IMG/VR virus record: IMGVR_UViG_3300006947_000057
Coordinates: 1-29,580 of that record
DNA from: a virus
Length of the DNA: 29,580 nucleotides
Direction: 5' to 3' (one strand)
Positions within the stretch are counted from its first letter, which is position 1. Each line of letters begins with the position of its first letter. Positions 820 through 29,560 of this stretch are shown here, in pieces. The position numbers and the translations under genes are program-made. The notes below the pieces were generated by a model that was not told the DNA's origin, made no database searches, and saw only the letters and a program-made list of their open reading frames with translations.

Positions 820-848
820 AGTATATAGTAAAATGCAACAGTTGTCAA
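820..848 (-). promoter_or_regulatory. Sigma70-type promoter for gp47 (TTGACA-N17-TATACT)
   Basis: On the minus strand a perfect -35 box TTGACA (848-843) is followed by a 17-nt spacer and TATACT (825-820), five of six matches to the -10 consensus. It begins 2 nt after the gp55 stop codon. This would let host RNA polymerase start gp47 transcription independently of the upstream gp55 gene. Consistent with early or middle expression. Confidence 0.75.
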
Positions 849-849
849 C

Positions 850-1704
850 CTATTTCTTGGGTTTAAGTTCTGCAAACGCTGTGGCGCCTGCTTCTTCGTT
901 GCGCTTTACTGCTGCTTCCCATTCGCCTTGATTTTGTCTAGTATAACTTGGATTTAAGTCATTCATTTCCAAAATATCATCTCGAATGTTTTGATTACGC
1001 TTCTCAATATTAATAACACGAACAAAACTGTTAGTTACAGCGGCAGTATAGTAAGCAAACGGATTGTCTGACTTAGATTCATCAAACTGCAAGCCAATTT
1101 GTGCTAATTGTAGTATTGCTTGACCTTTCATTTCGTCATTATAAGTATACCCACGAACATTACCGCGAGTTGCATAACGATCAACAAGCTTTAACCACAT
1201 TAGCGCAAGCGTATTAGTTGCTTTACCATGTTGATGACTAAAATGTCCATTATCCATACCACCTACCCAATGACTTTTTCCAACTAATATAAGTTCGCCT
1301 TCGTCATTGTACTTGTAATGATGAAATGGTGGAAAGGGAAGCTTAACTCTTGTATCAGCAACAGTCTTTGGGTTCTTTTTACGACCTGGCTCTTCAGGAA
1401 TATGATCAAATGACATAATGCGAAAGATTAATTCTTCTTTTGTGATTTCAGTATATAATGTTTCGCATTCTGCTTGCTTAACTTTTTCACCTAACCCTTT
1501 CCTACGCTCGTATTCAGCTGAAGACATCTTCTTTGCCTTGTTACGCTTTGCTTCTGTAACAGTTAGTCTGTTAACTTTATCTAGTGTAGGCAAAATAATA
1601 TCATACTGACCGTATTCTGGTTCAGTATAACTGTTAAATTGATTCTTTGACTTATGTATTTCTTTAAGTATGTCTTTATTGTTTAAATAATTCTTGGGTT
1701 TCAT
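850..1704 (-). CDS. 55: Late-transcription sigma factor, T4 gp55-like, with enlarged N-terminal half
   Basis: The 284-aa product resembles T4 gp55, the small phage sigma that directs host RNA polymerase to late promoters. The C-terminal part (residues about 164-245) carries the family signature: an N-T-L-A-L-M-W-L-K-L helix, then G-Y-T-Y-N-D-E-M, Q-F-D-E-S-K-S-D-N-P-F-A-Y-Y-T, and the basic I-E-K-R-N-Q stretch. The N-terminus also matches (N-Y-L-N-N-K-D-I-L, against YVNNKELL in T4 gp55). The two matches are separated by roughly 120 more residues than in T4 gp55 (185 aa in total). I see no clear C-terminal hydrophobic sliding-clamp motif like that of T4 gp55. ATG at 1704 follows GGAGAA by 4 nt (GGAG by 6). 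A near-consensus sigma70 promoter lies directly upstream. The recognisable late-like motifs in front of the structural genes are presumably its targets. Confidence 0.85.
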   Translation of the reverse strand: MKPKNYLNNKDILKEIHKSKNQFNSYTEPEYGQYDIILPTLDKVNRLTVTEAKRNKAKKMSSAEYERRKGLGEKVKQAECETLYTEITKEELIFRIMSFDHIPEEPGRKKNPKTVADTRVKLPFPPFHHYKYNDEGELILVGKSHWVGGMDNGHFSHQHGKATNTLALMWLKLVDRYATRGNVRGYTYNDEMKGQAILQLAQIGLQFDESKSDNPFAYYTAAVTNSFVRVINIEKRNQNIRDDILEMNDLNPSYTRQNQGEWEAAVKRNEEAGATAFAELKPKK

Positions 1705-1727
1705 TACATTCTCCAGTTGTTATAACT

Positions 1728-1756
1728 ATTATAAACTACTATGTTAATTTTGTCAA
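1728..1756 (-). promoter_or_regulatory. Consensus sigma70 promoter of the gp55 gene (TTGACA-N17-TATAAT)
   Basis: On the minus strand, TTGACA (1756-1751), a spacer of exactly 17 nt, and TATAAT (1733-1728) match the bacterial housekeeping consensus at all 12 positions. The start would be near 1721, giving a leader of about 17 nt with a GGAG ribosome site (1714-1711). It should be a strong promoter for unmodified host polymerase, placing gp55 synthesis early. Confidence 0.85.
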
Positions 1757-1770
1757 CTAAATAGTAGTAT
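1757..1770 (+). promoter_or_regulatory. Late-promoter-like motif (CTAAATA) before the structural cluster
   Basis: CTAAATA at 1757-1763 resembles the T4 late -10 element TATAAATA, recognised by gp55. It ends 24 nt before the ATG of the first structural gene, with AGGAG at 1771-1775 between. It directly abuts the -35 box of the divergent gp55 promoter. Support comes from the same TAAATA motif at the other late-gene gaps near 10053 and 28933; there is no experimental evidence here. Confidence 0.6.
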
Positions 1771-1787
1771 AGGAGACAAGATAAATT

Positions 1788-2639
1788 ATGGCCTTTTCAA
1801 TAAAATCAGCAGCATCTAACTTTATGAGTAGTGTGTTATCTGATGTAAAAAATACTGTTAAAGACGCTGCATTAGGAGCAATAACCCAGAAGCTTGGCGC
1901 CCTTGGTCCGTTAGGAAAGTTAGCTGCTGACTTTGTAAGCCAGACATCAGGGTTTGGGTCAAATAATAACAGAACAATATCAAGGGCTATTATCTCAGCT
2001 GACAATTCATCTGCAGAAGCAGGCGACTGGCGAGTTAGTATAAGTGTTCCTGAAGTATTTTTAACAGGCGGCAACATATTAGCTCCATTACGTGAACCTT
2101 CTGCTCCATCTAGTCACTGGAATACTGGAAACAGAATGATATTTCCGTTTAACCCTACAGTATTATTGAGTCACAGTGCAAGTTACTCTCAAGTGCATCC
2201 AACACATACAAATTATGCTTATAATGCATATGAAAATAGTCAAGTAGATGCAATTACACTTACAGGCGATTTTTATCAAGAAAATGAAAATGATGCAAGG
2301 TATTGGTTAGCATGCCTACACTTTTTAAGAAGCGCAACAAAGATGTTTTACGGTAATAGCCAACCACTTGGCAATCCACCTGTTGTTTGCAGACTTAACG
2401 GTTACGGCAAACATGTATTAAATAATATTCCTGTTGTAATAACAAATTTTACAACAGACTTGCCTGTTGATGTTGACTATATTGAGTGTAGTGTAGACGG
2501 GCATCAAAACTATGTGCCTACACAAAGTTCAATAACAGTTACATTACAACCGCAATACGCAAGAAGATCAGCAGCAGGCTTTAGTTTATCTGCATATGCT
2601 AACGGCGGTCATATAAATGGACCGGAGGGATTTGTATAA
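1788..2639 (+). CDS. Baseplate tail-tube cap/junction protein, gp48/gp54-type
   Basis: The 283-aa product has a helical, hydrophobic, Gly/Ala-rich N-terminus (residues 1-60) followed by beta-rich sequence. The segment A-I-T-L-T-G-D-F-Y-Q-E-N-E-N-D-A-R-Y-W-L (about residues 156-175), the L-H-F-L-R-S-A-T-K-M-F that follows, and N-I-P-V-V-I-T-N-F-T-T-D-L-P-x-D-V-D-Y-I resemble the tube-like barrel of T4-type proteins that cap the hub and start the tail tube. T4 has two such proteins, gp48 and gp54, and I cannot tell which this corresponds to. It is the first gene of the plus-strand cluster, behind a late-like motif. Its stop overlaps the ATG of gp53 (TAATG, 2637-2641). The structural role is fairly sure; the exact T4 equivalent is not. 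Confidence 0.6.
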   Translation: MAFSIKSAASNFMSSVLSDVKNTVKDAALGAITQKLGALGPLGKLAADFVSQTSGFGSNNNRTISRAIISADNSSAEAGDWRVSISVPEVFLTGGNILAPLREPSAPSSHWNTGNRMIFPFNPTVLLSHSASYSQVHPTHTNYAYNAYENSQVDAITLTGDFYQENENDARYWLACLHFLRSATKMFYGNSQPLGNPPVVCRLNGYGKHVLNNIPVVITNFTTDLPVDVDYIECSVDGHQNYVPTQSSITVTLQPQYARRSAAGFSLSAYANGGHINGPEGFV

Positions 2640-2935
2640 TGAGAAACAATTTAAGTCCGTATGCAAATACGCCAGTAACTAATCAAGGTTATTTAGACAT
2701 ACTAAAACCACGACCAGTGCCAGTAAGTGGAAAAGATATTCTTTTTACAATAACTCCTGAATACACATATCGTCCTGACTTACTTGCACATATTACATAC
2801 GGCAGAAAAGAGTTATGGTGGGTATTTGCACAGCGTAATTTAGATGTATTAAAAGATCCTGTTTTTGATTTTATTGCAGGCACGAAAATATTCTTGCCTG
2901 ATCATTCTGCATTAAGAAACACTTTAGGAATATAA
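2639..2935 (+). CDS. 53: Baseplate wedge protein gp53-like
   Basis: A 98-aa protein with the compact signature of the gp53/LysM-like baseplate family: Y-T-Y-R-P-D-L-L-A-H (about residues 42-51), then Y-G-R-K-E-L-W-W-V-F-A-Q-R-N-L-D, then D-P-V-F-D-F-I-A-G-T-K-I-F-L-P. T4 gp53 (about 196 aa) joins wedges around the hub and carries a LysM-like fold; this version is half that length and consists of little more than the core. Its ATG overlaps the previous stop by one base, with GGAGG at 2624-2628 inside the upstream gene, implying coupled translation and coordinated amounts. Confidence 0.75.
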   Translation: MRNNLSPYANTPVTNQGYLDILKPRPVPVSGKDILFTITPEYTYRPDLLAHITYGRKELWWVFAQRNLDVLKDPVFDFIAGTKIFLPDHSALRNTLGI

Positions 2936-7094: not shown

Positions 7095-9566
7095 ATGGCA
7101 TCAGGAAACTATACAAGAACATCAGCAGGTATGACTACTGGATTTAAAGATTCAGGACCATATGAAGCAATTGTAGTTAATAACCTCGACAGTCGATATA
7201 TGGGCGGTCTTACTGTTGAATTGTTAAAATACACTCAAGCGGGTGGCACTCCGGAAAAATCAGGACAGCTACTAAATGTTAGATATTTAAGCCCTTTTTA
7301 CGGCACAACACCAAACTCAGCGTTAACAGCAAACGATGGTTACGAACATACACAAAAAAGTTATGGTATGTGGATGGTCCCTCCAGACATAGGTACTAAG
7401 GTACTTGTAATATTTGCAGAAGGCAATGCAAACTTTGGTTATTGGATTGGATGTATACCTGCAGACTATATGAACTTTATGGTTCCTGACGGCAAAGCAT
7501 CTACACAAAATACAACAGGTGTTACTCCTCCTGGTTTAAAAGGTAGAAAACTCCCAGTAGGCGAGTATAACAAAGCAATTGAAACTGGCGCAAAGGTTGA
7601 TCCTACACTTTTTGAAAAACCTTACAACAAAGACTTTACAGAATCCTTAGAAATTCAAGGGTTGTTAAATGACGAAGCCCGCGGCACAACTACAACTAGT
7701 GCAAGACGAGAAATACCTAGTATGGTATTTGGTATTAGTACTCCTGGTCCAAAGGATCGGAGAGACGGAGCACCTAAATCAGAAATAGGCACAGCTGGAC
7801 AAAAAGTAGCAGTACCGTCTAATAGACTTGGCGGCACATCATTTGTAATGGACGACGGCGATGAAAGATTTGTTCGCGCCACACATGCAGAAGATGGTCC
7901 TCCTATATATAAAAACAAAGGAAATAAAGAAGAGGGCGGTGATAGAACCATTCCGCAAAACGAATTATTCCGTATACGTACTAGAACTGGTCATCAAATA
8001 TTAATGAATAACAGCGAAGACTTAATTTATATAGGTAACGCTCGTGGAACAACTTGGATAGAAATGTCTAGTGATGGCAAAATTGATATTCATGCACAAG
8101 ACAGTGTTAGTATTATGACTGAAAATGATTTAAACATTACTGCTGAACGTGATATTAATATGGAAGCTGGCAGAAATGTTAATATTAAAGCTACTGGCAG
8201 AACAAAAGGCCAAGATACTGGCAGAGTACAAATTGAATCTGTTAACGATTTTAATTTACATGTTGGAGCTAATAGTAAAATTACTGTAGGAAAAGATCAA
8301 CATATAAAAGTAAAAGGATCGCAGCATTTAGATACTAATAATTTTTTGCATATTAAAACAGGTCAAGATAATAGATTAACAGCAGGCGGCTCAACACATA
8401 TTAACAGTACTAAAGAGCATAGAGAAACAGCAACATATGTGCATATGAATGGACCAACAGCTTCGATAGCAAATCCTTCGAAAGAAGTACAATCACTTGA
8501 AACAATCACGTTACCGCGTGTTGAGCCAGGTAGTGTAATATCAGGATACGAATCTATACTAGCAAGAGCACCGCAGCACGAGCCTTGGCCGCACCATGAA
8601 AACTTAGATCCGCTATCGTTTAAGAAAACACAAACAGATAGAGAAACACCAGGAGCACTCCCAACAGCAGATAGAGTAGTTACTCCGGATACGTTTGATA
8701 AAAACTTACAAGGACGTACAACAAGTGCGTATGTGGGCGGCTCAGGCGGCAACGTTACATCGGGATCAAGTGCAGGTGGACCCGGACACGGCCAAACTCC
8801 AGTACCACAAGGAGATTATACAAGCAACTTTGACTTTGACGGTACAGAAGCATTAGGATCATTAAGCGCAAGATACGAATCAAGAGGAAACCCAGCAACT
8901 ATTGGTTGGGATAGTACAGGTGGATTTAGTTACGGAACATATCAGCTTGCAGCAAACGTAGGTGTTATGAACGAATTCCATAATTGGCTAGCAAACGCAC
9001 ATCCTAATTTAGAGTCGCAATTATCCGCAGCAGGAGGAGCAACAGCAGCCCGCGCAGGAACTAAAGCATATAAAGCAGCTTGGGCACAAGTAATGTCTAC
9101 AGCAGAAGCAGCAGAAGCACAACACGAGTATGCAGTATTAGCGTACTATAGTCCAGGTGCTAGAAATATTAAAAGAAAAACTGCTCTTGACTGTAATTTA
9201 CGTTCTACAACTTTACAAAATGTTGTGTGGTCTTGTGCTATACAACACGGAGTTGGCGGCGCAGCAAAAGTATTCCGCAATGCTCTTGCATCTCTTGGAT
9301 ATCCAGGTAACCAACCATCTCTCACTGAACCAAGTGAAGCTGCTTTAATTAGAGCAGTTTATAAAGAGCGTCGAAATGTCAATAAGCATTTTGCTAGGAG
9401 TACTTCTGGTGTTAAAGCAAGTGTTGTTAAACGGTTCCATAATGAAGAAGCTGATGCATTAAAAAGTTTAGAACAGGAAATTTTACTAGCAAAACAAAAT
9501 ATAAAACAACAAGAGCCAACTGATAATAGTGCAGCACAACAACCAGCAGGTTCTTTAAGGGTATAA
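7095..9566 (+). CDS. 5: gp5-like baseplate hub spike with C-terminal lysozyme-like domain
   Basis: The 823-aa product has three recognisable parts. Residues about 20-135 look like the OB-fold N-terminal domain of T4 gp5 (Y-E-A-I-V-V-N-N-L-D, then G-T-K-V-L-V-I-F-A-E-G-N-A-N-F-G-Y-W-I-G). Residues about 299-450 are the beta-helix needle, with short repeating lines such as K-I-D-I-H-A-Q-D, D-I-N-M-E-A-G-R and N-V-N-I-K-A-T-G, as in gp5/VgrG spikes. Residues about 585-770 look like a lysozyme-type peptidoglycan hydrolase: A-R-Y-E595-S-R-G-N, followed by G610-F-S-Y-G-T-Y-Q617; E595 is the candidate catalytic acid. T4 gp5 has its lysozyme between the OB domain and the needle, so here the order differs. 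The spike trimer would pierce the outer membrane and the enzyme would open the peptidoglycan. AGAGGA (7078-7083) lies 11 nt before ATG. Confidence 0.82.
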   Translation: MASGNYTRTSAGMTTGFKDSGPYEAIVVNNLDSRYMGGLTVELLKYTQAGGTPEKSGQLLNVRYLSPFYGTTPNSALTANDGYEHTQKSYGMWMVPPDIGTKVLVIFAEGNANFGYWIGCIPADYMNFMVPDGKASTQNTTGVTPPGLKGRKLPVGEYNKAIETGAKVDPTLFEKPYNKDFTESLEIQGLLNDEARGTTTTSARREIPSMVFGISTPGPKDRRDGAPKSEIGTAGQKVAVPSNRLGGTSFVMDDGDERFVRATHAEDGPPIYKNKGNKEEGGDRTIPQNELFRIRTRTGHQILMNNSEDLIYIGNARGTTWIEMSSDGKIDIHAQDSVSIMTENDLNITAERDINMEAGRNVNIKATGRTKGQDTGRVQIESVNDFNLHVGANSKITVGKDQHIKVKGSQHLDTNNFLHIKTGQDNRLTAGGSTHINSTKEHRETATYVHMNGPTASIANPSKEVQSLETITLPRVEPGSVISGYESILARAPQHEPWPHHENLDPLSFKKTQTDRETPGALPTADRVVTPDTFDKNLQGRTTSAYVGGSGGNVTSGSSAGGPGHGQTPVPQGDYTSNFDFDGTEALGSLSARYESRGNPATIGWDSTGGFSYGTYQLAANVGVMNEFHNWLANAHPNLESQLSAAGGATAARAGTKAYKAAWAQVMSTAEAAEAQHEYAVLAYYSPGARNIKRKTALDCNLRSTTLQNVVWSCAIQHGVGGAAKVFRNALASLGYPGNQPSLTEPSEAALIRAVYKERRNVNKHFARSTSGVKASVVKRFHNEEADALKSLEQEILLAKQNIKQQEPTDNSAAQQPAGSLRV

Positions 9567-13000: not shown

Positions 13001-13615
13001 CCAAGTAATGATGAATTATTTAGAAGCTACGGAACTGAAATTAATAAAATAAAAAGTATTAGTGATGAAATAATTTATCATCCTGTAAAGTATAAAGTAT
13101 TATTTGGTGACAAAGCAACACCTGATTTGCAAGTTAGATTTAAAATTGTTAAAAATGCAAATATAGTTATTAATGACAATGAACTTAAATCAGACATTAA
13201 CGAAGCTATTAATAAATTCTTTGATATTGAAAATTGGGACTTTGGAGAAACATTTTACTTCCAAGAGCTTAGTGCTTATATTATAAATCAGCTGTCTCCT
13301 AAACTGGTAAGTATACTAATAGTACCGCGCCAAACTACACAATCGTTTGGTAGCCTATTTGAAATAAAAAGTGAGCCAGATGAAATATTTGCAAGTGCAG
13401 CTAAAGTGACTGATATTGAAACAATAGATCAGATTACTGCAACAAATTTACAAGCCAGTGGCACAGTACTTAATACAGTGGCAACAGCTTCAACAGCAGG
13501 GATTACAAGCAGTGCATCAACAACTACAAGTACAACAACAACTACAGCTACAACAAGTAGTGGATCAAGTGGCAGTTCAAACAGCAGTTCTAACGGTGGA
13601 GGCTATAGTTACTAA
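10082..13615 (+). CDS. 6: Baseplate wedge protein gp6-like, enlarged
   Basis: The first 130 residues are typical gp6: D-W-K-R-I-Y-Q-S-F-R-N-A-D-F-Q-S-Y-D-F, then R-T-M-I-N-Y-L-R-Q-N-Y-P-E-D-F-N-D-Y, then E-S-S-E-Y-L-A-L-I-D-M-I-A-F-L-G-Q. A baseplate-J-like signature (F-S-D-G-V-F-G-N-L-P-A-G-D-F) lies at about 343-358. The region about 985-1120 (E-I-I-Y-H-P-V-K-Y-K-V-L-F-G, then N-W-D-F-G-E-T-F-Y-F-Q-E-L) resembles the C-terminal part of gp6. gp6 forms the iris-like ring joining wedges around the hub. At 1177 aa it is far longer than T4 gp6 (660 aa): roughly 500 residues lie between the conserved parts, and a Ser/Thr/Gly-rich tail (1134-1177) is added. The start has AGGA 7 nt upstream. The stop overlaps the next ATG as TAATG (13613-13617). 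Confidence 0.85.
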   Translation: MSANDRQSRLLVAEDWKRIYQSFRNADFQSYDFDNLRRTMINYLRQNYPEDFNDYIESSEYLALIDMIAFLGQNLSFRIDLNARENFLETAERRESVLRLARMLSYNPRRNQAANGLLKFDTIKTTENLLDSNGLNMAGITVKWNDQTNTNYFEQFVKIMNSALPISNSIGNPLKSALIADVQTQKYRLNATNTGTAIYPFTKRIEGVSTGFEIVSTDMSTDEIFEEAPLPGNSPAFLFRDDGQGAGSANTGFFMHFRQGKLETGNFSVTNPTPNQAIQIDSENINDTDVWVFAVNSSGYESNQWTKIDSTEGNNVIYNSLFNKTRDVFAVTTRIGDRINLVFSDGVFGNLPAGDFRAYYRSSSNVRSVITPSAINTVSIDIPYQSRNGTAQTLTLGLKLNYTVSNGTSSETNAEIKQNAPATYYTQNRLITGEDYNIGPLAISQDIIKTKSSNRISSGISRFFDLKDASGKYSNTSLFADDGVIYKEEFAEKQSFTFATQTDIEGVIYNTIEKVLSNINTQNFYLAKYPKIIVSDLSASWNQYSTSTNQTLGLLQDIDANPYTVGTFTANSLRLLEAGTMVKFVAPTGKHFMADGTLMDDGAAGDHLGKTNYKWSKVISIIGDGTTLDADGIAPIALSDYIPTGAVLEQVIPNYSKVLINDIKTQLIDQAFEYKDFALRYDQYDRQWKIVLAEDINTIGAFATGKAGDITAENLDASWMLYFKTDGEKYTITYRNLRYVIESAEEIRFFFDSADKIYDPSTGQIVRDKIDVLNINRQPGALVPFTRDFNWTITDAYRDAEGYLDSRKIQIQFIDLDDDGVVDDPDIFEQIVGEDNTAIQTKDKLIFQKKYTTTDAVEDFKYFANTTAEIIVVQNEPAIAPYSTRLEGQIFYLIDEGIFRKLNKVLNNTQINTDYKAYFGRADLKFHYIHVADSGYRIDPSASNIIDTYVLSKAYDTQVKQYISGVLLTQPKPPSNDELFRSYGTEINKIKSISDEIIYHPVKYKVLFGDKATPDLQVRFKIVKNANIVINDNELKSDINEAINKFFDIENWDFGETFYFQELSAYIINQLSPKLVSILIVPRQTTQSFGSLFEIKSEPDEIFASAAKVTDIETIDQITATNLQASGTVLNTVATASTAGITSSASTTTSTTTTTATTSSGSSGSSNSSSNGGGYSY
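13481..13612 (+). repeat. Low-complexity Ser/Thr/Gly tail of gp6
   Basis: This stretch is mostly ACA/ACT/AGT/AGC codons encoding runs of T and S, then S-S-G-S-S-G-S-S-N-S-S-S and N-G-G-G-Y-S-Y. It looks like a flexible tether, with the terminal aromatic residues as a possible docking end. It also contains GGAGG (13598-13602), the probable ribosome site of the giant gene. Confidence 0.8.
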
Positions 13616-16600
13616 TGGCTAAGAATGATCAAAACGAAAGCGCACTACCTGTTCCAGGACAGAATAATAAAATTACTGCAAGTGATTTTTTACCAAAGTT
13701 CTTTAGAACTCAAGCTAATAAAAAGTTTTTACAAGGCACACTTGATCAACTTATACAGCCTGGCGTTGCGGAAAAGGTAAATGGTTATTATGGCAGAACA
13801 ACTGCTAAAGCATATAAAGTAACTGACAACTATATTGATGATGTAACTGCTGATAGAACTAACTACCAGCTAGAACCTGCGACAGTTATTAAAGACAACT
13901 ATGAAAATGTAACATTTTATAAAGACTATAATGACTACTTAGGCCAACTTAATGTATTTGGCGCAAACACAGATAATCACAGTCGTTTAAACAGTCAAGA
14001 AACATATGCTTGGAACCCAAATATTGATTGGGACAAATTTGTAAACTTCCGCGAGTACTACTGGATGCCAAATGGTCCACTTAGTGTACAAGTTAGAGGA
14101 CAGAGCAGAGATGTTGTTAGCACATACACTGTAACTACTGAAGACCAAGGCGATAATATTGCTTACATATTCAACGATGGTTTAACAGTTAATCCAACGT
14201 TAAAACTTTACCGTGGACAAACATACCGTTTTGAAATAAACACTCCTGGACATCCGTTGTCAATTGCCCTTAGTAGAACTTTTACTCCAGGCACGACTGT
14301 TGACACTAATGTTAGTACATTGTATACTGACGGTATAACAACGTTTGATAAAGACGGCAACGCTACAATGCTTAGTTATGTTGAAGAAGGAACAATTGAA
14401 TTTACCATTCCATCAAACGCTCCTGATATACTATATTACATTAGTGAAAATTCTATTGATACAAGTAGCTATATTAAAGTTTACGACATTGAAGAAAATG
14501 CATTCCTTAATGTTACAGCAGACATTATAGGTAAGAAAACGTATACTAGTGCAAACGGTGTTGCATTATCAAACGGAATGAAAGTTAAATTCCAAGGCGA
14601 TGTACTACCTGCTATATACGAAACTAACGATTGGTACGTTGAAGGTGTAGGCGATAAAATTGTATTAATTAAAGACCAAAACTTAATTATTCCAGCTGCA
14701 TACAGTGACAGTAAAAGTGTAGCGTTTGATGCTGATAACTTTGACATACTACCGTTTGCTGATGCCACTGCATATGCAACAAATAAAGATTATATTGTTA
14801 TCAACAGAAGTACTCCAGATAGAAATGCATGGAGTCGTTATAATAAATGGCACCACAAAGATGTAATTTTAAAAAGTTTTGAACTTAATAAGTTACCAAG
14901 AGATGTTGATGAATCAGCCCGTGCATTACGCCCAATTATCGAGTTTGAAGCAGGACTAAAGTTAAACAACTTTGGAGCATATGCCAAACAGGATGTTGAC
15001 TTAATTGATACATTTACTACAGATGTGTTTAGTACTATTGAAGGACAAATAGGGTATAACATTGACGGCGTTGCACTTTCAGATAACATGCGTATTTTGT
15101 TTGCAGCAGATATTGATCCAAAAGTTAGCGGAAAAATATATAATGTTAAATTTGTTGAAATTGGAAATGTTAGGCAAATTAGTTTAATTGAAACTACTGA
15201 TACATTACCTATTGATCTCGAAACAGTGCTAATTACACAAGGTGTAAAAAATGCAGGTAAAAGTTATCATTACCACGGAGCAAAGTGGACTGCCGCACAA
15301 GAAAAAACAACTCGCAACCAAACACCAAAGTTTGAAGTGTTTGATGTAAATGGTAATAGCTTTAGTGACACTACTTACTACGGATCGACTAGTTTTTCTG
15401 GCACTGAGATATTTTCTTACGCTACTGGCACAGGTACAGTTGACAAAGAATTAGGGTTTGCGCTTGACTATAAAACATTAAATAATACAGGCGATATTGT
15501 TTTTGATTTTAATCTTTTAAATGACACTTTCCACTATCAAACAGAAACTGACTTAATAACACATAAAATTAATAGTGGCTATTTAAAGAAATATAAATCA
15601 CTTACTGCATTTTCTTATGTAAACGGATTTAGTAATACACCGTATCAAAGTAAGCAATATGTTATATCTGAATATGCTGCAACTGATTTACAGACTAATA
15701 AATTTGTAATTGATGTATATAAAGATTCTAGTAGTTTATCTGATTTACAGGTAATAGTATTTGTTAATAATAAATTACAAATAGCTGCAACATCATATAC
15801 CCTTGACAAAACTGCTGCTAATGTATCTGTTCTATTTAATACAGATTTAAAAGAAGGCGATGTTGTCAAAATTAAAACAGACAGTAAAGCTATTAAAAAT
15901 TCTAATGGATATTACGAGTTTCCGTATAACTTAGAACGAAATCCTTTGAACGATGATGTTAATCAATTTACATTAGGCGAAGTAGTTGACCATGTCGACA
16001 GTATGCTAGAAGATATTCCAAACTATGATGGTGTATATCTTGGATCAAGTAACCTAAGAGACTTAGGCGATTTAGATCGTTATGGCAAACGCTTTGTTAA
16101 ACACAGCGGCCCAATCAACTTGCCGCTGTACCACGTAACTAATAAAAGTTATAATATTGTAAAGGCATTAAAATATTCTAAAAGAGAATATTCAAGATTT
16201 AAAAAGACATTTTTAGATACTGCTTTAAACTTAGGATACGATGGTCCAGTTAAAGGACACGTAGATAAAATATTAAAAGAAATTAATGCTGATAAGTTAA
16301 CATCACAACCGTTTTACTTCTCTGATATGCTTCCATCAGGAGCAGCTAATAAACTAACGTACACTATATTAGATATTAGAACAACAGAATATCCAATTAC
16401 TAATAATTTCAACTTAACTAGTCTTAGTACAGAAAGTGTAATTGTTTATTTAAACGGATTACAATTAACACACGAAAAAGATTATAACTTTAATACTGCT
16501 GGATATATATCAGTAAGTTCAAACCAAAAAGAAAATGATTTACTTGAAATATACGAGTATGCATTAACTGACGGAAGTTTTATTGCTCCAACGCCTACTA

Positions 16601-19600
16601 AGTTAGGATTGTATCCTAAGTATTATCCAGAACTAACAATTGACGACACTGTACTTGCAGATGAACCAGAAACTACTGGTCCGTTTAAAGTATATGCTCA
16701 AGACGAAGCAACTGGCACTAGAGGTTGGTTCCATCCAGTGTATACTACCAAAATTGCGGCTGGCGCAGGTGCAACATCTAAGTCATATACGTTTAATGGA
16801 ATGAATAAAATATTCTACATACCAACAACAGGTGCAACACTAGGCGGCAATGATAACGTTGAAATAGTTGATTACCCAATAGGCGTTGCTTTTATTAGAG
16901 GTCACGACGGCAGTTATATTAAAGCGTACAAAGATTTTAGAGACGAATTGCTACTTGAATTAGAAAAAAGAATTTTTAACAATATTAAAGCTGCCTATTC
17001 AACTGATAGATTAGATGTTAATGCTTTTATCGGTGGCGAGTTTAGAACTAACGAATTCACAAAATTTGAAATTGATACTACTATGCTTGGCGACTTCCAG
17101 CAATGGATACAGCAAAATTTAAATAATATTTCGTTTACTGATAATAATTTTTATGATAGAACCAACAATTGGACATTTAACTATCAAGATACTACTTCTC
17201 CAGACGGTAATATAAATCCAGGACACTGGAGAGGCTTATATATACGAGCATTTGATACCGATCGTCCTCACAGTCATCCTTGGGAGATGCTTGGTATAAC
17301 AACTAAACCAAACTGGTGGAATACAGTGTATGGTCCAGCTCCTTATACAGGCGATAACTTAGTACTTTGGAAAGACTTAGAAAAAGGTCGTATTGCTGAT
17401 CCTACTAATACTAAAATTGATCTTAAATATGCCCGCCCTGGATTAACTAGTTTTATTCCGGTTGATGGTATTGGTAAACTATTATCACCATTAGATAGCC
17501 GATATGCTAAGAACTTCCAAATACAAAGTGCAACACAAAACTTTAAGTTTGGTGACGCTGCTCCAGTTGAAAATGCATGGCGCAGGAATTCAGAATATCC
17601 TTTTGCAGTATTAACAGCTATGCTATTAAACAAACCTGCAAAAACAATGAGTTTAGGTTTTGATGTTTCAAGAATAACTAAGAACTTAGCAAAGCAGTGG
17701 GTTAATACAGAAACAAACGCACCTATTGTTATTAAAGATTTAAAATTACCAAATACTATTAAATCAGCAACACGTACTATTACTGCTGGATTAGTAAACT
17801 ACATTTATAACTTAGTAGCAAGTGATATATTAACAGTATACACAGGATACCAAACTGAGTTAGCTACAATTAGTAACCAATTGGGTGTAAAAGTTGCAGG
17901 CTTTACAAGCAAACAAAAGTTTAATTTAATACTTGACAGTAGGTCACCAACTCAAGAACAAACTCAAGGCGGAATTTTTGTTCCGCAAGAAAACTATCAA
18001 GTATTTCTAAATACTAGTAGCCCCACTGAGCTTGCAATTTATAGCGGCTTGGTTGTAGAACGAGCTGAACTAGGATATGTTCTAAGAGGATACAATTTAG
18101 AAAAGCCTTACTTTGAATATTATGAACCGCACATAGGATCTACTAAAGCAGTAGTAACGGTAGGCGGCATCTCGGAATCAGTAAATGAATGGTCTAGTAA
18201 TACTTCTTATGTTAGTGGCGAAGTACTTTTAAACAATAGTGCTTATTATAGAGTTATTAACTCTTTTACATCCGGAGCATCTTTTGATCTTACTGATATT
18301 GTTAGGTTACCTGCTTTACCACTTGCTGGCGGAGTAACAGCAGAGTTTAAAAGAGACTTTGACTTTGGCGAACTTAAAACATTACAGTATGGCGCCCGAC
18401 TCAACACTGCTCAAGAAGTAGTTGACTTTATTTTAGGATATAGTCAACGCCAAGCACAGCTAGGCTTTAGTTTTGAAAATGTTATTAAAGGATCAAATGC
18501 AGTTGAAAACTGGGCAAGCTCTGCAAAAGAGTTTTTGTTCTGGACAACTCAAGGTTGGGCAAAGAGTGCGTTAATAGCATTAAGCCCAGGCGCAAACTTA
18601 TTAGAATTTAAAAGAGAATATTATGTAGTTGATAATATTAAAGATGAGTTTTATGGTTATAATATATTTAAAGCAGATGGACAGTTCCTAAGCTCTGAGT
18701 TTAACAGTTTATTAAGAGACCAAAATAGTTTTGGAATTCAAGTAGATGGAACTGACGAAGGATTATATCATGTATCACTTCCGTTAGTACAAAAGGAACA
18801 CGTTTTACTAATAGACAATAAAACAGATTTTAATGACAGCATCTACAATCCAAGTACAGGATATAGACAAGAGCGAATCCGTGTTAATGGTTACAGATCC
18901 GATGGTTGGAATGGCGGATTAAATATCCCTGGATTTATATATAATGATGCAAGCTTTACAGATTGGGCCCAGTGGAAAGATTATAAGATCGGCGATATTG
19001 TAAAGTACAAGCAATATTACTATGTGGCAACAATAAATGCTACAGGGTCACAGAGCTTTAATTCAACTAACTGGTATCAGTTAAGTGAAAAGCCTGAGTC
19101 ACAGTTAATGACTAACTTTGATTACAAAATTACACAGTTTACAGACTTTTATGATTTAGATTCAGATAGCTTTGATATTGAACAACAGAAGATGGCACAG
19201 CATTTAATAGGTTATCAAAAGCGCCAGTACCTTGCTAACATTATTAATGATGATGTAAGTCAGTTTAAATTCTACAGAGGCGCAATTGCAGACAAAGGCA
19301 CAATGAATGTGTTTACTAAACTGTTTGATGCACTAGGCAATACTGCTGATAACTTAGAATTTTACGAAGAATGGGCAATACAAGTTGGTCGTTATGGTGC
19401 AGTTGATGATGTACAGCAAGTAGAGTTTAACTTAAAGCAAGATAAAATGCAAGAGTCACCTCAGGCAATTGAATTGTTAAGCTCGTTACCAGCAACAAAC
19501 TTTGATAAGATTTATAGAATACTTCCAAATGAAGTATACGATAAGCCAGAAGGATATACACACTCACCGTTTCCTACCAAAACATTAGCTAATGAATATA

Positions 19601-22600
19601 TTAGAACTGCTGGATATGTAAACGAAAATAGTGTTGACTTTGTTGTTAACAACATTATAGATCTTGCGGCTATTGATAGTAACCAAATTTCTCTAGGAGC
19701 AACTATATGGGTAACTGATACTAGCACTACACAAGGCGGTATAATTAATCCTGTTGACTGGTCAGTATTACAGTTAATAAAAACTAAAGCTAACATAACA
19801 TCAGCATTAACAGCTATAGCTAGAGTATCAGAAAGTGGACTACAGTTAGTAGAACTAACACTTGATAAATGGGCAGACCAAGTTTTAAGTGTAGGCGAGT
19901 ATATTAGTGTACGCGGAGCAAATCAATATGCTCTTAATGGTATATATGAAGTAGATAGTATTAACTTAGATAAGATTCAAATCCAAGTTCCAATAACTAA
20001 CGAAATAATAGACTTTGAAGAAGAATCATTTACACTATCAAAATTAAGAACAGTTAGAGTACCAACTGTAGAATCACTAAATTCATTTATTAATCAAGAA
20101 CTTTACAATAAACAAAAGTTATGGATTGATACATACGGTGCTGAGTGGGCAGTATTAGAAAATAATCCTGTTTATTTAAATCAGCATACAATCACAAATC
20201 CAGCATTGTATGATAGTACTGATCAAGGATTTAGTGATAGTGTTGCAGTAACACAAAATAATAATAATGTTTTTGTATCATCGCCTAACGATGTTAACGG
20301 CAAAGTATCAGTTTATAGAAGAACTAGAGAACAGTCTGAATTAATATTAGATCAAGAATTATCACTTGACAACGATGACTTATATAGTAAGACAAATGCA
20401 GACTTTGGAAAAAGTATTGCAGTATCGCCAGATGGCGAATATCTTATTATAGGTGTCCCGCAAGCAAGTAGTGTTAAGACTAGATTAGCATATAAAACAG
20501 ATGCAAATACAAGCCTAAGTACATTTGACTTTCAAAGCGATGCAACTTATGTTAAGAGTGATATTGTGCGCTATAGAGAGAGCTTGTGGAAAGCTAACAG
20601 AGAAATCCTTCCACAGATTGGAAGCCAAGGATTTAGTACGTTTGACACATATGTAAACATTGCAAGCCAAGCAGATGCTGATAGTACAACAATAAACTTG
20701 TTAGTTTCAGGAGATCCAGGATTACAAAATAACATAACAAACCACTTGTTAGTACGTGCTCCAAAAGATATGTACATTGGTACAAAGCCCGGAGATTTAT
20801 TACGGTTAGCTTGGAACAGACGGAGTTATACATATCCTACATTAGCTAATTATCTTCCGTTTGATGGTGATATTTCTGAAATAACACCAGAATTCCTTGA
20901 TGCAGAACATACTATTGTTGAAAAAATTGATCATGTATTTTTTGTTGAAGCTTTTATAACATTGCCGACTGTAGGTAGTACAGTAACAACTGATACCGGT
21001 GCCGGCGTAGTATTTTATGTAGGCACTAGACTTGATAGTGCAGTAATATATATTAAAGATACAAATGGCATATTTCCGTTAACTGGAACTTTATATGTAA
21101 ATGGAGCAGACGTAGTTGGAGATTATACAGAACAAGCAACAGTTGCTACAACTAATGCAGTCGGCGGATATTGGTATATTAATACAGGATTTAATTATAA
21201 TAATGATGGTACATATTATGATCAAGGTCGCGGACTAGTTTATGCTGATATTAAAGTATCCGGATCAGCCCGTGCATTAAATGTGTACTCTAACATTCAA
21301 GAGACAGTTGGAACAATCGGTGTATATGTAACTAAGAAAAACCAAGCTAGTTACATTGCTCAATTATCTTATAGAGGTGACACTTCATTACAAGATGGAG
21401 CAGATGGTGCTGAACGTGATCTTCCGAGTAACAAGCTTGTTATCCGAGGAGCAAAGACATTTACAGATACATTAACAATAAGTGACGTACAGGAATTCCG
21501 TTTATACAATCTTGACAACAGAGTTATTGATCTTGCAAGTGCAGGACTTACATACGATATCCTAAACAAATCACAAACAATTGTTGATTTATGGGATGGA
21601 TATATTGATTTTAAATTAACTGAGTTTGACTTCCAAGGATTTGCATTTGAACCACAGGTTGGTGACATAATTGAAGATGTACAAATCCCACGAGATGGCC
21701 AAGGCGGACTTGCAGTAACTAGTATTACAACTAGTAGTGCTGAAGTTGTGTTTGTACAACGTAACTTTACTGATGTTAAAGTATATCTAAAAATTGTTGC
21801 AAATACAGATGGCACTACTGGAGATTGGACCGAACTATCAAATATTGGACGCTTTGGAATTTCACGTAGAGCAAACGTTGCACTACGAGGAGCAGCTGAT
21901 GTTAAGCGTACTATTGGCACAATAACAGATGTAAACAATAGTATTGCATTAGGTACTACACTAATTGGTAAGTTAATTGTACTAGAACATTCATCTAACT
22001 TTGATATTAGTGCTTCGCCAACAATAGTTGACGAAGAGTATTGGTTCTTTGGTGAAACTACTGAATCTGGTATTTCTAGATTGCCTAATCCTCCGTTTAG
22101 CTTAAACAAAGATTATACACAAGTTTATAATATTCCAGCAGATGCAACTGGCACTGCGCAAACATTTGCTAACGAAGGCGCGTATGTAATCTATAGAAAA
22201 TTAGATAACGGCAGCTATAGATACCAAACTACAATAATATCAGAACATAGAGCAGCAAATAGAAACTTTGGCTCTCAAGTTGCAATAGTACAAACTGGCG
22301 ACTACTATACATTACTAGTAGCTAGTAATGGTGTTACCGCAGCTGGAGAGTCATTTGATAATACCGGCAGACGAACAGACCCTGGATCAATTGAAATATT
22401 CCGTCATGGTACTAAAGCAACTGACAGTTTCAAAGGTGAATATAAACTAACAGCATTTGAAATAGGAGATATTGTAACATATAAAGACGGATATTATATT
22501 TGCCTTAAAGCAACAACAGTTTCTGATAATTTTATTACTGATCCAATTTATTGGAGTAATATTAGTTGGAAGCAAGCAAAGGATTCTAACTACAGAGGTA

Positions 22601-25600
22601 ATTTCGACAACACTTACTCTTATATAATAGGAAGTGTAGTTGCACAAAATAATGCACTATGGAAAGCAAAAACTAACGTAGCAGTTAATGCAGCAGCTCC
22701 AAGTGCTTCAAATAACTCTTGGGAAAGTATTACTACTGATGTTGATTACTTAGGATACTTGCCAAACTTAACTGCAAATGCATTTTACAATGAAAACGTA
22801 TTTGATCCTATTGAAAATATAGTAGAGTTTAGTAAGAGTTTTGATATTAGTAGTGATGCACAAGTTCTAGTTGTAACAAGTAAACAACAGACGGTAGCCA
22901 GTACATCAAATATAACACTTGCAATTTACCGTGCAGTTGGTGAAAAGTTCCAATTATCTCAAACAATAACAGCGCCTGACGATGTTACAGGATGGGGCGA
23001 CAAAGTTAGTTTAAATCCTGAAGGAACACAATTTGCAGTAAGCTCAATGCGAAATGATAATACTAAAGCTAATCAAGGTGTTGTGTATGTTTATACACAA
23101 GCAGCCGGCACATTTACTTTAACACAAACACTAACTCCGCCAAACAACGAAGAAAGCGAAGGCTTTGGATTTGGATTATCATACGGAACTGATAACTTAG
23201 TTGTATCAAGTTTAAATGGTGATCAAACAATTCCAACTACGTTTGACGTTACTACATTTACAACAACAGACGATACAGCAACTACGTTTGATAACTTGTT
23301 TACAAACTTTAGAAATATCAAACTTGATAAAGGAGCTGTATATGTTTACGAAAATATTAATAGTAACTTAATATATTCAGAGCAGTTTACATATCCGTTA
23401 ACACAAACTACGTTTGGCGAGAACATTTATACTAACGGAAACCATGTTTATATTGGAATGCCAGATCAACTTGTAGGAGCAATAGACGGCGCCACTCCAA
23501 GTGATGACGTTGCTGGATACAAAGGTGCATTAGTTGACTTTAGAAAAAATGCAACTACGTTTGCCTGGAGTGTTGTTAATGAAGGCATAACCCCAGTTGA
23601 TGTAGATAATATTCGCGGAGCGTTCTTATACAACAAGCGTGAAAATTCCATTGTAAGTTATATTGATTACATTGATCCAGTACAAGGTAAAATTGCTGGC
23701 CCAGCTGAGCAAGAAATTACATTTAAAACTCCGTACGATCCTGCTGTATATAACACAGGAGCAACTGCTGATAATACAGTTGATCCTAATAGAGCATGGT
23801 GCGAAACACATGTTGGACAAGTTTGGTGGAACATTAGTGTTGCTAAATTTGCACATGCTTACCAAGGGTCAACAACATTCCAAAAAAACACATGGAATAA
23901 ACTAATTCCTGGAGCAAGGATAGATGTGTTTGAATGGGTCGAAAGTAGTTTTATTCCAAGTATTTGGGATAGTGTAGCTGATACCCCTAATGGACTTACA
24001 GCTGGAATTAGTGGTGTAAGTTTATTTGGAGATAGCAAGTATTCAACTAAAATAGTGTATGATGATATTAGTCAGACGTTTAGTAACTTGTATTACTTTT
24101 GGGTTGTTAATAAAGTTACAATTCCTGTATTAGAAAACAGAAAGTTAAGCATTAGCGATATTGCAGCACTTATTGAAAATCCAAGAACACAAGGTTATCC
24201 ATTCTTAAGTTTACTTTCAGATAATAAATTTGTTCTTAATAACTTTGATACATTTGTTGATAACGATGATTTAGTTTTGAATATTAAATATTCAACGGGT
24301 CCTAAGAAAACACAAAATCTGCACAGTCAGTACAAGTTAATATCAGATGGATTAAGTACAAGTAAACCTGACCCAGATATTGAACGTAAATGGTTTGATA
24401 GTTTAATTGGCTTTGATGACAATAACAGAACTGTTCCTGATCCTACTATAACACTTAAAACTCGCTATGGTGTACAAAATCGCCCAAGACAGAGTATGTT
24501 TGTAAATAGATTTGAAGCATTAAAGCAAACCATTGAAAGAATAAATTTAAAATTAACTGAACACCTTATAGTTGATGAATATAATCTTACAGCATTAACA
24601 AAGAAAGATGCTGAGCCTACATTATTGTCAAGACAATATGATTTAACATCAGCTACAGTAGCAGAACTTACATATGTAAGTACAAACAAAATTACTTCTG
24701 CTATACTAACACCTATTATTACTAATGGTAGAATATCTAGAGTTGATATTGTCGATGCGGGACGTGGCTACAAAGTTGCTCCTACTTTTACAATTAATGG
24801 AACTGGCACAGACGCTGAATTTGATATTACTATTAATAACTTAGGACAAATAACAGCAGTTGTTATTGTTAACAGCGGAAAATTATACAATAGTAGTACT
24901 ACTATTACAGTTAGACCAGTTACAGTGCTAGTAACAGCAGACGAAACTATACAAAATAAATGGGCGTTATATTCATGGAACGGCATTGCTTGGTATAGAA
25001 GAAAACTTCAAAGTTATAATACAAATTCATATTGGCATTATATTGATTGGTATGCAACTGGATTTAACCAGTTTACAAATATTAACGACACTATTGCAGG
25101 ATCATATCAGCTACCAAGTTTAAATAATGCTATTGGCCAAATTGTAAAAATTGAAATAGTTGGTACAGGTGGATGGCTATTATTACAAAAAATAGATGAT
25201 GTAGACACTGAAGACTACACAGTTAACTATAATACAATTGGACGTCAAAACGGAACAATACAATTTAAAGATACATTGTATGACTACTCAAAGAACACTA
25301 TAGGATTTGATAACCGCAGCTTTGATAGTAATTTTTACGACAATAATCCAAGTGTTGAGTTAAGAAGTATACTTGAAGCAATTAGAGACGATATCTTTAT
25401 AGGCAATTTATCTGTAGAATATAATCAATTGTTTATGGCAGCACTACGATATGTAATGTCAGAACAGCAAGCAGTTGACTGGATGTTTAAAACTAGTTTT
25501 GTAAAATCTAAGCACAACAGAGGTTCGTTAAGTACACAGGATTTAACATTTAATAATGATAATCTTTCAAGCTACCAAGACTTTGTTGAAGAGTTTAAGC

Positions 25601-28600
25601 CTTACTCAACAAAGATAAGAGAATTTGTTAGTGATTATGCTGGACTTGAGCCTACTAATAGTTCTATTAGTGACTTTGATTTACAGCCACAGTATGATAA
25701 AACAACTAAGAAAATTAATGCAAGTAGTGCAAAGATTATTGATAATATTATTACTGATCAGAATCTTAACACAGCAGTATATCCACGTAAAAACTGGAAA
25801 GATAATCACGGATACCAAATAACTCAAGTTAAAATTGGTGATGCTGGCTCTGGCTTTACATATGAACCTACTGTACTATTTTCAGGAGGCGGCGGCACAG
25901 GAGCAGTTGCTAAAGCATACTTAGGATATGGAAAAGTTACTAGTATTGTAGTAACTAATCCAGGTAGTGGATACACTAGTGCCCCTACTATTACTATATC
26001 AGGCTCGCAAGTAACTGGAAGTACTCCGACAAAGGCGACAGCAGTATTAGGCAACGGTTTAGTAAGAAGCCCAAGTGTTAAAATTAAGTTTGACAGAACA
26101 AGTGGAGCATTTACTTTTAGTTCTTTAGCTAAGTCAGAGACATTTACAGGTACTGGATTTGAAGCAAGATTCTTCCTTGAATGGCCAATGGATCTTAACC
26201 TTACAAAAGTAAGTGTTTACATTGACAACATATTACAACTGCGTAGTAAATATACTTTTGTAAATGTTGATGACACCACAAAGTCTTATACTAGAGAGCA
26301 AGGTAAGGTTATATTTGTAACTCCGCCAAAACTAAATGCAGTTATAAAAATAGATTATAATATACCATTAAGTATGTTGAACGCATCAGACAGAACCCAG
26401 CTTGCATACAAGCCAATAGCAGGTATGTATGGTAATGATTTAGCACAGCTAATGACTGGAATTGATTACGGCGGCGTTGAAGTACGAAGCTTTGACTTTG
26501 CTGGCCCTAGTGGATTTGATACAGCAGGTTGGTACACCGATACATGGGACACATATGATAATACGTTTGAAGATGAAGTCTTTACAGCAGACGGATCAAC
26601 AATTGCAGTACAGTTAAGTGCTCCGCTCGAAGATGGTGTTGTTTATAATCTTTATAAAAACGGCGTAAGAATTGACGATCCTAACTTTAGTTTAGGATCA
26701 GCAACTAATGTAAATGCTATTGCAAATAGTATTACGGGTGACGGCACAACTGATATAATTTATGTACAAGACCTAGAAATAAGTTTATTAGATGGTGATA
26801 TATTTGTTGTAAGAAAGACTTCCAGTGACGGTAGTATACAGCCTGATGTAACTAGTTATGATACGGCGATTAGTGGAGGCGACTTAGCATATGCAACTGC
26901 TAAAGGAATAACAGCAGAAGAAATTATTATAGACGGCGATGGTTTTGTTACTCCTACAACAAGTAGCGGTCCTGAAGAAGTAGTTCCTGGACAAGTACTT
27001 GACACGCTTGATATTAAAGTGTTTACAAGAGATAGTGCAGGACAAGGCATTATTAATAGCCAAAGTTATACAATGAAAAACACAAATACTTACAATTTAG
27101 GTGTAACACCTAATAGCAGTGACGCAGTTATTGTAAAAGTTAGTAACGTTATACTACCACAGACTGATTATACAATTAATTGGGTAGCTAATACAATAAC
27201 ATTGGCTACAGTAGTTCCAGGAGCAGAACTTAGTATTGTAACAGTTGCCCAAGGCACCCAAAACATATTAGACTTTGGTCAATCTATGGGAGACGGCAAT
27301 AGGACTGAATTTGAAACAACAGTTGATTGGGAAACTGGAGCAAGTGTATATGCTAGTATTAACGGAGTACAACAAACAGTTGATGCATTTAAATCAGAGA
27401 CTGGACCTAAGACAGTTATTAGATTTAGTACAGCGGTACCCGTCGAAGGAGTAATTAACTATACTGTATTTGCATCAGATACACAAATTAATTATAGCCA
27501 AATTACTAAAGATACGTTTACTGGCGATGCAGCAACAACAGTGTTTACACTAGCAAATGCACCGTTGTATTCAACCCCTACAGAACATAATGTTATTGTT
27601 AAGGTAGATAACAAAATATTAAATGCAGGATATAATGTACAATATACAATACCAGCATCAGTTCAGCGTGAATTTGCATTAGAGATATTCCAAATGCCAC
27701 AAGGTAGTTTAAATGTTTCTGACATTAAAGTACTATTAAACGGTACAGAAATTACAACTCCAACACAATGGCGTTTTGAAAATGCAAATAGTAGTATTAC
27801 ACTAGCTGACGAAATTGGAGTAGCTGGTGACTTGCTTGAAATGTATGTAATTACAGATGGTGAATACAGAGTTACAGGAACTACAGTTACTTTAGACACA
27901 GCTCCAGTTGCTGGCGCTGTTATTGAAGTAATAAAGTTTACTAATCATAATTTACTAAAAATTGAACGTACAAATTACGAAGTTGTTTCAAGATCAACAT
28001 TAACAGAAGCAGATGTTGATTACGTTACTTACAATAGATTAACAGTTGGCGAAATAACGTTGCGCAAACCAGCAGCAGATGCTCAGTATGTTTGGGTTAG
28101 CGTAAACAACGAGCTGTTATCACCGAGTGTAGACTATTATATTACCGACGATAAGAAAAAGGTGCAATTAGTACGTCAGCCAGCGGCTGATGATGTTATA
28201 GATATTATTCACTTCACTGCTGATATTAGTGTACCTAAATTTGCTTATAGACAGTTTAAGGATATGCTTAATAGAACACACTTTAAACGCTTAGAAAAAA
28301 GTACAGCTAGGTTAGCACAACCATTAAATTATTACGATCTAAGAGTTGAGTTAGATGATGCAAGCGCATTGTCAGAACCGAATAAAGCGCAAAATTTACC
28401 AGGTGTAATCTTTATTGACGGCGAGCGTATTGAGTACTTTGTAAAAGAAAGTAATACACTGCGCCAGCTACGTAGAGGAACATTAGGTACTGGAGTTAAG
28501 AATACTTACACATTAAATACTAAGGTATACGATCAGAACATAAGTAAGACTGTTCCGTATAAAGATAGTACATTGGCATATAATGCTACAGCAGACGGTG

Positions 28601-28935: not shown

Positions 28936-28946
28936 ATACAGTATAG
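28933..28946 (+). promoter_or_regulatory. Late-promoter-like motif (ATAAATA) before the 200-aa gene
   Basis: ATAAATACAGTATAGGA shares TAAATA plus a following GTATAGGA with the gap before the first structural gene. TAAATA (28933-28938) overlaps the stop codon of the giant gene and ends 19 nt before the next ATG. It is the closest match in the window to the T4 late element TATAAATA. Confidence 0.6.
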
Positions 28947-28957
28947 GAAAAAATTAA

Positions 28958-29560
28958 ATGAGCGATAACATGCAAGATACAAACGGAGTACTAGTTCAGG
29001 GACATATTAAGATATTCGACCCTGAATCACAAAAGGTATACATTGACAAGCGCAATGCAATCCATTACGAGAATATGAGTATTGCACTAGCAGATAGTTT
29101 AGCAAACGCTGGACAAGGGTTTATATATGAAATGAGCTTTGGAAACGGCGGAACAAGCGTCGACCCAACTGGTATTATTACATATCTAACACCTAACAGC
29201 ACAGGAACTAATGCAAGTCTATACAACCAAACCTATACTAAAGTTGTTGACGACAGAAGTGTAAATAATACTGACCCTGCAAGAAATAAACTTGAAACCC
29301 GACATGTAGCGGGTACAAATTATACCGATATTGTTGTAAGTTGTTTACTTGATTACGGCGAACCAAATGGACAAGATGCATTTGATACTGCAAGTGCAAC
29401 AGACAGTCCGTATGTGTTTGATGAGTTAGGATTACGTAGCTACAGTGCTGCTGGAACAGGAAGATTAATGACACATGTTATTTTCCATCCTGTACAGAAG
29501 TCGCTTAACAGATTAATACAAATTGACTACACTGTGCGTGTACAAAGTTTGGCAGGGTAA
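28958..29560 (+). CDS. 200-aa virion structural protein, probable baseplate component
   Basis: I cannot name the family with certainty. The product has a beta-rich start (V-L-V-Q-G-H-I-K-I-F-D-P-E-S), then a helical stretch (Y-E-N-M-S-I-A-L-A-D-S-L-A), then F-I-Y-E-M-S-F-G-N-G-G-T-S-V, and ends with hydrophobic strands (I-F-H-P-V-Q-K-S, then I-D-Y-T-V-R-V-Q). There are no transmembrane segments or signal peptide. Following the giant protein in the wedge module, it occupies roughly the gp8 position of T4, but it is much shorter than gp8 (334 aa) and I see no convincing sequence match, so I leave it unnamed. AGGA (28945-28948) lies 9 nt before ATG 28958, and a late-like motif lies just upstream, so it may be transcribed independently of the giant gene. 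Confidence 0.7.
   Translation: MSDNMQDTNGVLVQGHIKIFDPESQKVYIDKRNAIHYENMSIALADSLANAGQGFIYEMSFGNGGTSVDPTGIITYLTPNSTGTNASLYNQTYTKVVDDRSVNNTDPARNKLETRHVAGTNYTDIVVSCLLDYGEPNGQDAFDTASATDSPYVFDELGLRSYSAAGTGRLMTHVIFHPVQKSLNRLIQIDYTVRVQSLAG

Follow-up and report, generated by a model that had tools for sequence, protein, structure and literature searches.

A sigma70-type early promoter of gp55 in contact with a divergent late box: a conserved composite at the early/late boundary of uncultured marine phages

When the early promoter of a late sigma factor gene touches, on the opposite strand, a box of the kind that this sigma factor should recognise, does the start of late transcription shut the sigma gene off? 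The question was raised by the 29.6-kb virus record IMGVR_UViG_3300006947_000057, analysed from position 1 to 29,580 (the window). Its sequence across the junction of the two promoters is ATTATAAACTACTATGTTAATTTTGTCAACTAAATAGTAG; the features of the locus are as follows.

820–848, minus strand: early promoter of gp47 (SbcD-like), TTGACA-N17-TATACT; internal comparison promoter
850–1704, minus strand: gene of a gp55-family late sigma factor, 284 aa (phrog_12791, 1.5e-73; phrog_234, 4.9e-22)
1728–1733, minus strand: −10 hexamer TATAAT of the gp55 promoter; TATAAT in 33/40 gap-0 clade representatives
1734–1750, minus strand: 17-nt spacer of the gp55 promoter, unusually well conserved (22.3 bits in the clade; 8.6 bits for the equivalent spacer of gp47 in these phages)
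1751–1756, minus strand: −35 hexamer TTGACA of the gp55 promoter; TTGACA in 36/40 and TTGACT in 4/40 gap-0 clade representatives
1757–1763, plus strand: late promoter box CTAAATA, its first base adjoining the −35 box of the gp55 promoter; 24 nt before the gene at 1788
1769, plus strand: predicted late transcription start, with the box at −12 to −6 by T4 geometry (PMC1524935)
1788–2639, plus strand: virion structural protein, whose gene opens the late operon (phrog_12050, 4.4e-40)
2639–2935, plus strand: baseplate wedge subunit, following the virion structural gene (phrog_7145, 2.4e-21)

By tblastn the gp55 of the window shared 35–46% identity with late sigma factors annotated in cultured jumbo phages, its nearest annotated relatives being those of MIJ3/PA5oct, Phosso, Atu_ph07, 121Q, RaK2 and GAP32; the gp55-family sigma factor that goes with T4-type late promoters is thus encoded by this phage (phrog_12791, phrog_234). 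Elsewhere in the window, an ORF of 5106 aa (13615–28935, plus strand) fills half of its length and gave a marginal FG-GAP repeat and nothing else in Pfam; a baseplate hub/tail lysozyme protein (7095–9566, plus strand) carries a C-terminal type VI secretion VgrG3-like domain (PF21277, 8.4e-28).

The first-pass annotation had placed gp55 behind a perfect minus-strand promoter of sigma70 type, and this reading was borne out: TTGACA-N17-TATAAT (1756–1728, minus strand) matches the consensus at 12/12 positions, lies 23 nt upstream of the start codon of gp55 (phrog_12791) and is the only 12/12 site of this type in the window (ca. 0.06 expected by a composition estimate). The arrangement of a sigma70-type early promoter, TTGACA-N16–18-TATAAT before an early gene, is found here; genes sampled behind TTGACA/TATAAT promoters included those of DNA polymerase, helicase, exonuclease and enzymes of nucleotide metabolism. 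The −10 hexamer of gp55 is nearer to consensus than that of gp47 (TATAAT in 33/40 vs 11/40), and the base that precedes TTGACA in early promoters is most commonly G (35/69). The conservation of the gp55 spacer is odd; it would be accounted for by an additional binding site or by selection for strength of the early promoter.

The neighbouring CTAAATA had been taken for an element of the gp55 type, and it could be upheld as a variant of the late box. Within the window alone the heptamer is not enriched (4 matches vs 11.5 in shuffles); it goes beyond chance by its position and conservation and not by its count. Across 224 upstream regions, drawn from the window and eight related contigs, ATAAATA was observed 84 times and CTAAATA 23 times, with 2.0 expected for each; genes sampled behind late boxes were those of tail sheath (GCTAAATA), baseplate wedge, head-tail adaptor and tail fibre, and in relatives CTAAATA itself stands before genes of the tail sheath and the baseplate wedge. 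Because it is enriched upstream of genes and stands before structural genes, CTAAATA is, on this sequence evidence, a genuine late box, the minority variant of ATAAATA. It also has the make-up of a T4-type late promoter: a −10-like box, TATAAATA or a variant of it, stands before late genes (CTAAATA, 1757–1763), and the adjacent TTGACA belongs to the opposite strand; 103 other late promoters held 0.05–0.40 bits upstream of the box, i.e., no −35 consensus. A late start near 1769 is plausible on T4 geometry. The clamp family of gp45 (PF02916) gave no match in 9 related contigs, nor in any control genome. Two further late-type boxes were seen: AATAAATA at 28931–28938 (plus strand), ca. 20 nt upstream of the gene at 28958, which resembles a late promoter and would be the window's second, and, in L102 (11813–11856, gene in G006), a same-strand GCTAAATA late box overlapped by the −10 of an early promoter TTGACA-N17-TATACT, a tandem early/late fusion.

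The contact of CTAAATA with the −35 box of gp55 on the opposite strand, also noted at first pass, was confirmed (1756/1757). In a tree of gp55 (153 representatives; IQ-TREE, quick mode) the window belongs to a clade of 43 members (SH-aLRT 98), and the boxes abut in 43/43. Forty of these read TGTCAACTAAATA, with TTGACT as −35 in four; the other three read TGTCAATAAATA (gap −1), a single change on the tree, which looks like the loss of one C from TGTCAACTAAATA, by which the box turns into ATAAATA and shares its last A with the −35. Since the C of CTAAATA pairs with the G that is commonest before TTGACA, it appears to work for both the early and the late promoter. Among the 40 non-redundant gap-0 representatives GTCAACTAAATA was kept in 40/40 at all 12 columns, with flanking leaders near saturation (near random) and 19–33 nt (gp55) or 12–24 nt (late) long. 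In 79/79 of the relatives listed, CTAAATA is kept at its place or, where a second early promoter has been inserted, the composite is kept further upstream. A DNA-pattern search blind to gp55 gave at least 80 loci with the composite, and 80/80 checked lie beside gp55 (77 by tblastn; 3 at a contig end, showing gp55 start codons); the exact composite occurs once per related contig, at gp55. Sequence comparison thus confirmed a conserved composite of two known promoter types at the early/late boundary, and TGTCAACTAAATA serves, at the least, as a reliable DNA signature of this boundary in many uncultured marine phages. The intergenic region itself gave weak matches only to cultured phages (blastn; E ca. 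9 among the matches listed).

The wider family was surveyed by consensus scoring in a fixed 220-nt region, so that single pair calls may be wrong; a region limited at the nearest divergent ORF had missed the late boxes of 121Q and Atu_ph07. Both boxes were detected in 116 representatives, with a gap of −1 to 1 bp (abutting) in 49, 2–5 bp in 7 (121Q, RaK2, GAP32, XaC1, Munch and kin), 6–27 bp in 20 and 28–75 bp in 40 (mode 48). Seven jumbo phages of enterobacterial and Xanthomonas hosts keep a gap of 2–4 bp, but in different letters; in PA5oct/MIJ3 the gap is 22 bp. Conserved abutment across related phages, named beforehand as support for a switch, was therefore found throughout the window's own clade (43/43) and not family-wide (49/116), and with gaps of at least 28 bp in 40/116 the occluding geometry is not conserved across the gp55 family. 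The divergent layout of gp55 and structural genes is kept far outside the abutting clade. Atu_ph07 carries the letters TGTCAACTAAATA; its best-scoring early promoter lies elsewhere, and it was left out of the count of abutting cases. Consensus scoring gave no [AC]TAAATA/early pair in 37 further representatives, some of which use TTAAATA or GTAAATA; one sister clade has different elements. In a sister gp55 clade of 25 representatives (L249, L349, L363 and kin) paired TGCGCCTA...TGCCTATAAATA blocks were seen upstream of gp55, and a conserved TGACCACAAACAGGTC upstream of gp55 in 15/25. As to an internal control, no divergent pair of a strong early promoter and a late box other than that of gp55 was present in 9 sequences.

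The reading we prefer, at a probability of about 0.5, is that of a composite divergent promoter in a T4-like marine phage akin to cultured jumbo phages, at which the two polymerases compete and late initiation damps the synthesis of gp55. Host sigma70 polymerase would transcribe gp55 leftwards, early; gp55 polymerase would then take the abutting CTAAATA and move rightwards into the first structural/baseplate operon. With late box and early −35 in contact, there would be no room for both polymerases at once, and each start site would compete with the other; new synthesis of gp55 would be lowered by late initiation without being abolished. The footprint of the basal late complex reaches to about −40. 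T4 late promoters do without a −35 element; their open complexes reach past the TATA box on its upstream side, and the clamp carries the late complex 13 bp beyond the upstream limit of the basal one (PMC2988020). On these T4 footprint figures, binding of the two polymerases is likely to be mutually exclusive at gaps below ca. 28 bp; a late polymerase sitting at 1757 would lie over the early −35 and most of the spacer, and the late box in turn would be hidden beneath a host polymerase at the gp55 promoter. Points that weigh against competition and damping are these: the family can do without abutment (gap of 6–27 bp in 20/116, at least 28 bp in 40/116), the fixed gap may reflect a near-zero tolerance of indels between touching boxes, and eight relatives have a second early promoter ca. 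39 bp from the late box.

The stronger proposal of the first-pass annotation was a strict self-limiting switch, in which late initiation occludes the −35 and gp55 is off once late transcription begins. The geometry of the boxes and their conservation in 43/43 clade members speak for it, but members of the same clade speak against it. In 8/40 gap-0 representatives the gp55 strand carries a late-type box; in 7 it overlaps the −10 of gp55, and six of these read TATAATAAATA. Fused in this way to gp55's own −10, the late box would keep gp55 on, and it is possible that gp55 is transcribed there by its own product, i.e., by positive autoregulation. This box is absent in the window itself, is limited outside the gap-0 group to one dubious case in 113, and requires ca. 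8 changes of state on the gp55 tree. (Fusions of the late box to the −10 of gp55, TATAATAAATA, were noted in L045, L046, L055, L062, L063 and L078, and also in L039, L040, L048, L052 and L076.) In eight close relatives an additional early promoter lies nearer to gp55, and its −35, ca. 39 bp from the late box, would be outside the basal footprint and marginal with the clamp. Most of the wider family, furthermore, is without abutment. That late initiation turns gp55 off was accordingly not supported as stated, given the fused late boxes (7/40), the extra promoters (eight relatives) and an abutment limited to the clade and scattered cases; a strict switch is quite improbable for the locus and unlikely as the general purpose of the abutment. 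It is rather doubtful, too, that the late sigma factor of the clade limits its own synthesis by displacing host polymerase, the fused box flipping the loop to positive feedback in some members.

Other explanations do without damping. The locus may be a compact early/late boundary of no regulatory consequence, at which two independently needed promoters are packed and cannot easily drift apart; we hold this as a tentative alternative, somewhat on the improbable side. The divergent synteny of gp55 and structural genes far past the abutting clade agrees with it, as do a family clade that holds steady at a gap of ca. 48, the single site for neutral insertions between touching boxes (vs about 20 in each leader), and the sole change seen, the loss of C (CTAAATA to ATAAATA), which preserves both boxes. 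Packing alone, however, does not require that the spacer, −35 and −10 of gp55 be kept nearer to consensus than those of gp47 (TATAAT 33/40 vs 11/40; 22 vs 9 bits). That spacer conservation, together with almost none upstream of the 103 other late promoters, would suit a further regulator which binds the block of spacer, −35 and late box and chooses which promoter fires, as p4 of phi29 does; by eye no palindrome or repeat stands out in the block, no candidate regulator came to light, and some of the spacer conservation may just tune the strength of the sigma70 promoter. Such a regulator is quite improbable. Least credible of all, and very improbable, is that CTAAATA extends the early promoter upstream (TATTTAGTTGACA) and is not a late promoter. 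In favour of this, no gap-0 member has lost the C, whose complement, G, most often precedes TTGACA (35/69); but TATTTA is missing before other early promoters, including that of gp47 in the same phages, CTAAATA/ATAAATA stands before structural genes without TTGACA, and ATAAATA takes its place in the gap −1 members. TATTTAG as a general extension of early promoters was rejected, the other early promoters, including that of gp47, being without it.

If gp55 does limit its own synthesis with a sign that the fused box reverses, the clade would hold natural feedback variants of opposite sign. In T4, late transcription depends for its timing on replication and on global competition between sigma factors; feedback on a late sigma factor at its promoter would offer control that is simpler and local. 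The natural variants (gap 0, −1, 2–4, 22–27 and ca. 48; with or without a late box toward gp55) make the effect of promoter spacing directly testable.

A description of a late box abutting the early promoter of gp55 was not found in the literature searched, and the parts of the locus can be set beside known systems. In phage Aeh1 the late box is CTAAATA, according to PMC1524935. As at T4-type late promoters (TATAAATA), there is a −10-like box only, a gp55-family sigma factor and structural genes behind; unlike T4-type phages and Aeh1, the relatives of the window use mostly ATAAATA, with CTAAATA the minority variant. Against a strict switch it may be added that T4 curbs −35-dependent transcription by host sigma in other ways, such as through AsiA (PMC2988021). 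For the jumbo phages CBB and GAP32, PMC5259590 gives three predicted promoter classes. One of them is a late ATAAATA motif found ahead of structural genes; the gp55-like gene has a predicted promoter of TGAAACG/TATA type. The window resembles these phages in its late ATAAATA class and in a predicted promoter before the gp55-like gene, and differs in the type of the latter (TTGACA-N17-TATAAT). By consensus scoring the late box of GAP32 lies 4 bp from its −35 region, a spacing on which no comment was found in the passages of PMC5259590 consulted. In the A2b-A2c/A3 switch of phi29, adjacent early and late promoters on opposite strands combine early repression and late activation in one place (PMC3100819); the early and late promoters of the window are likewise adjacent and on opposite strands. 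Phi29 relies on p4, a DNA-binding protein, together with p6, and host sigma serves both of its promoters (PMC3100819), whereas the later promoter of the window would use the product of the early gene as its sigma factor.
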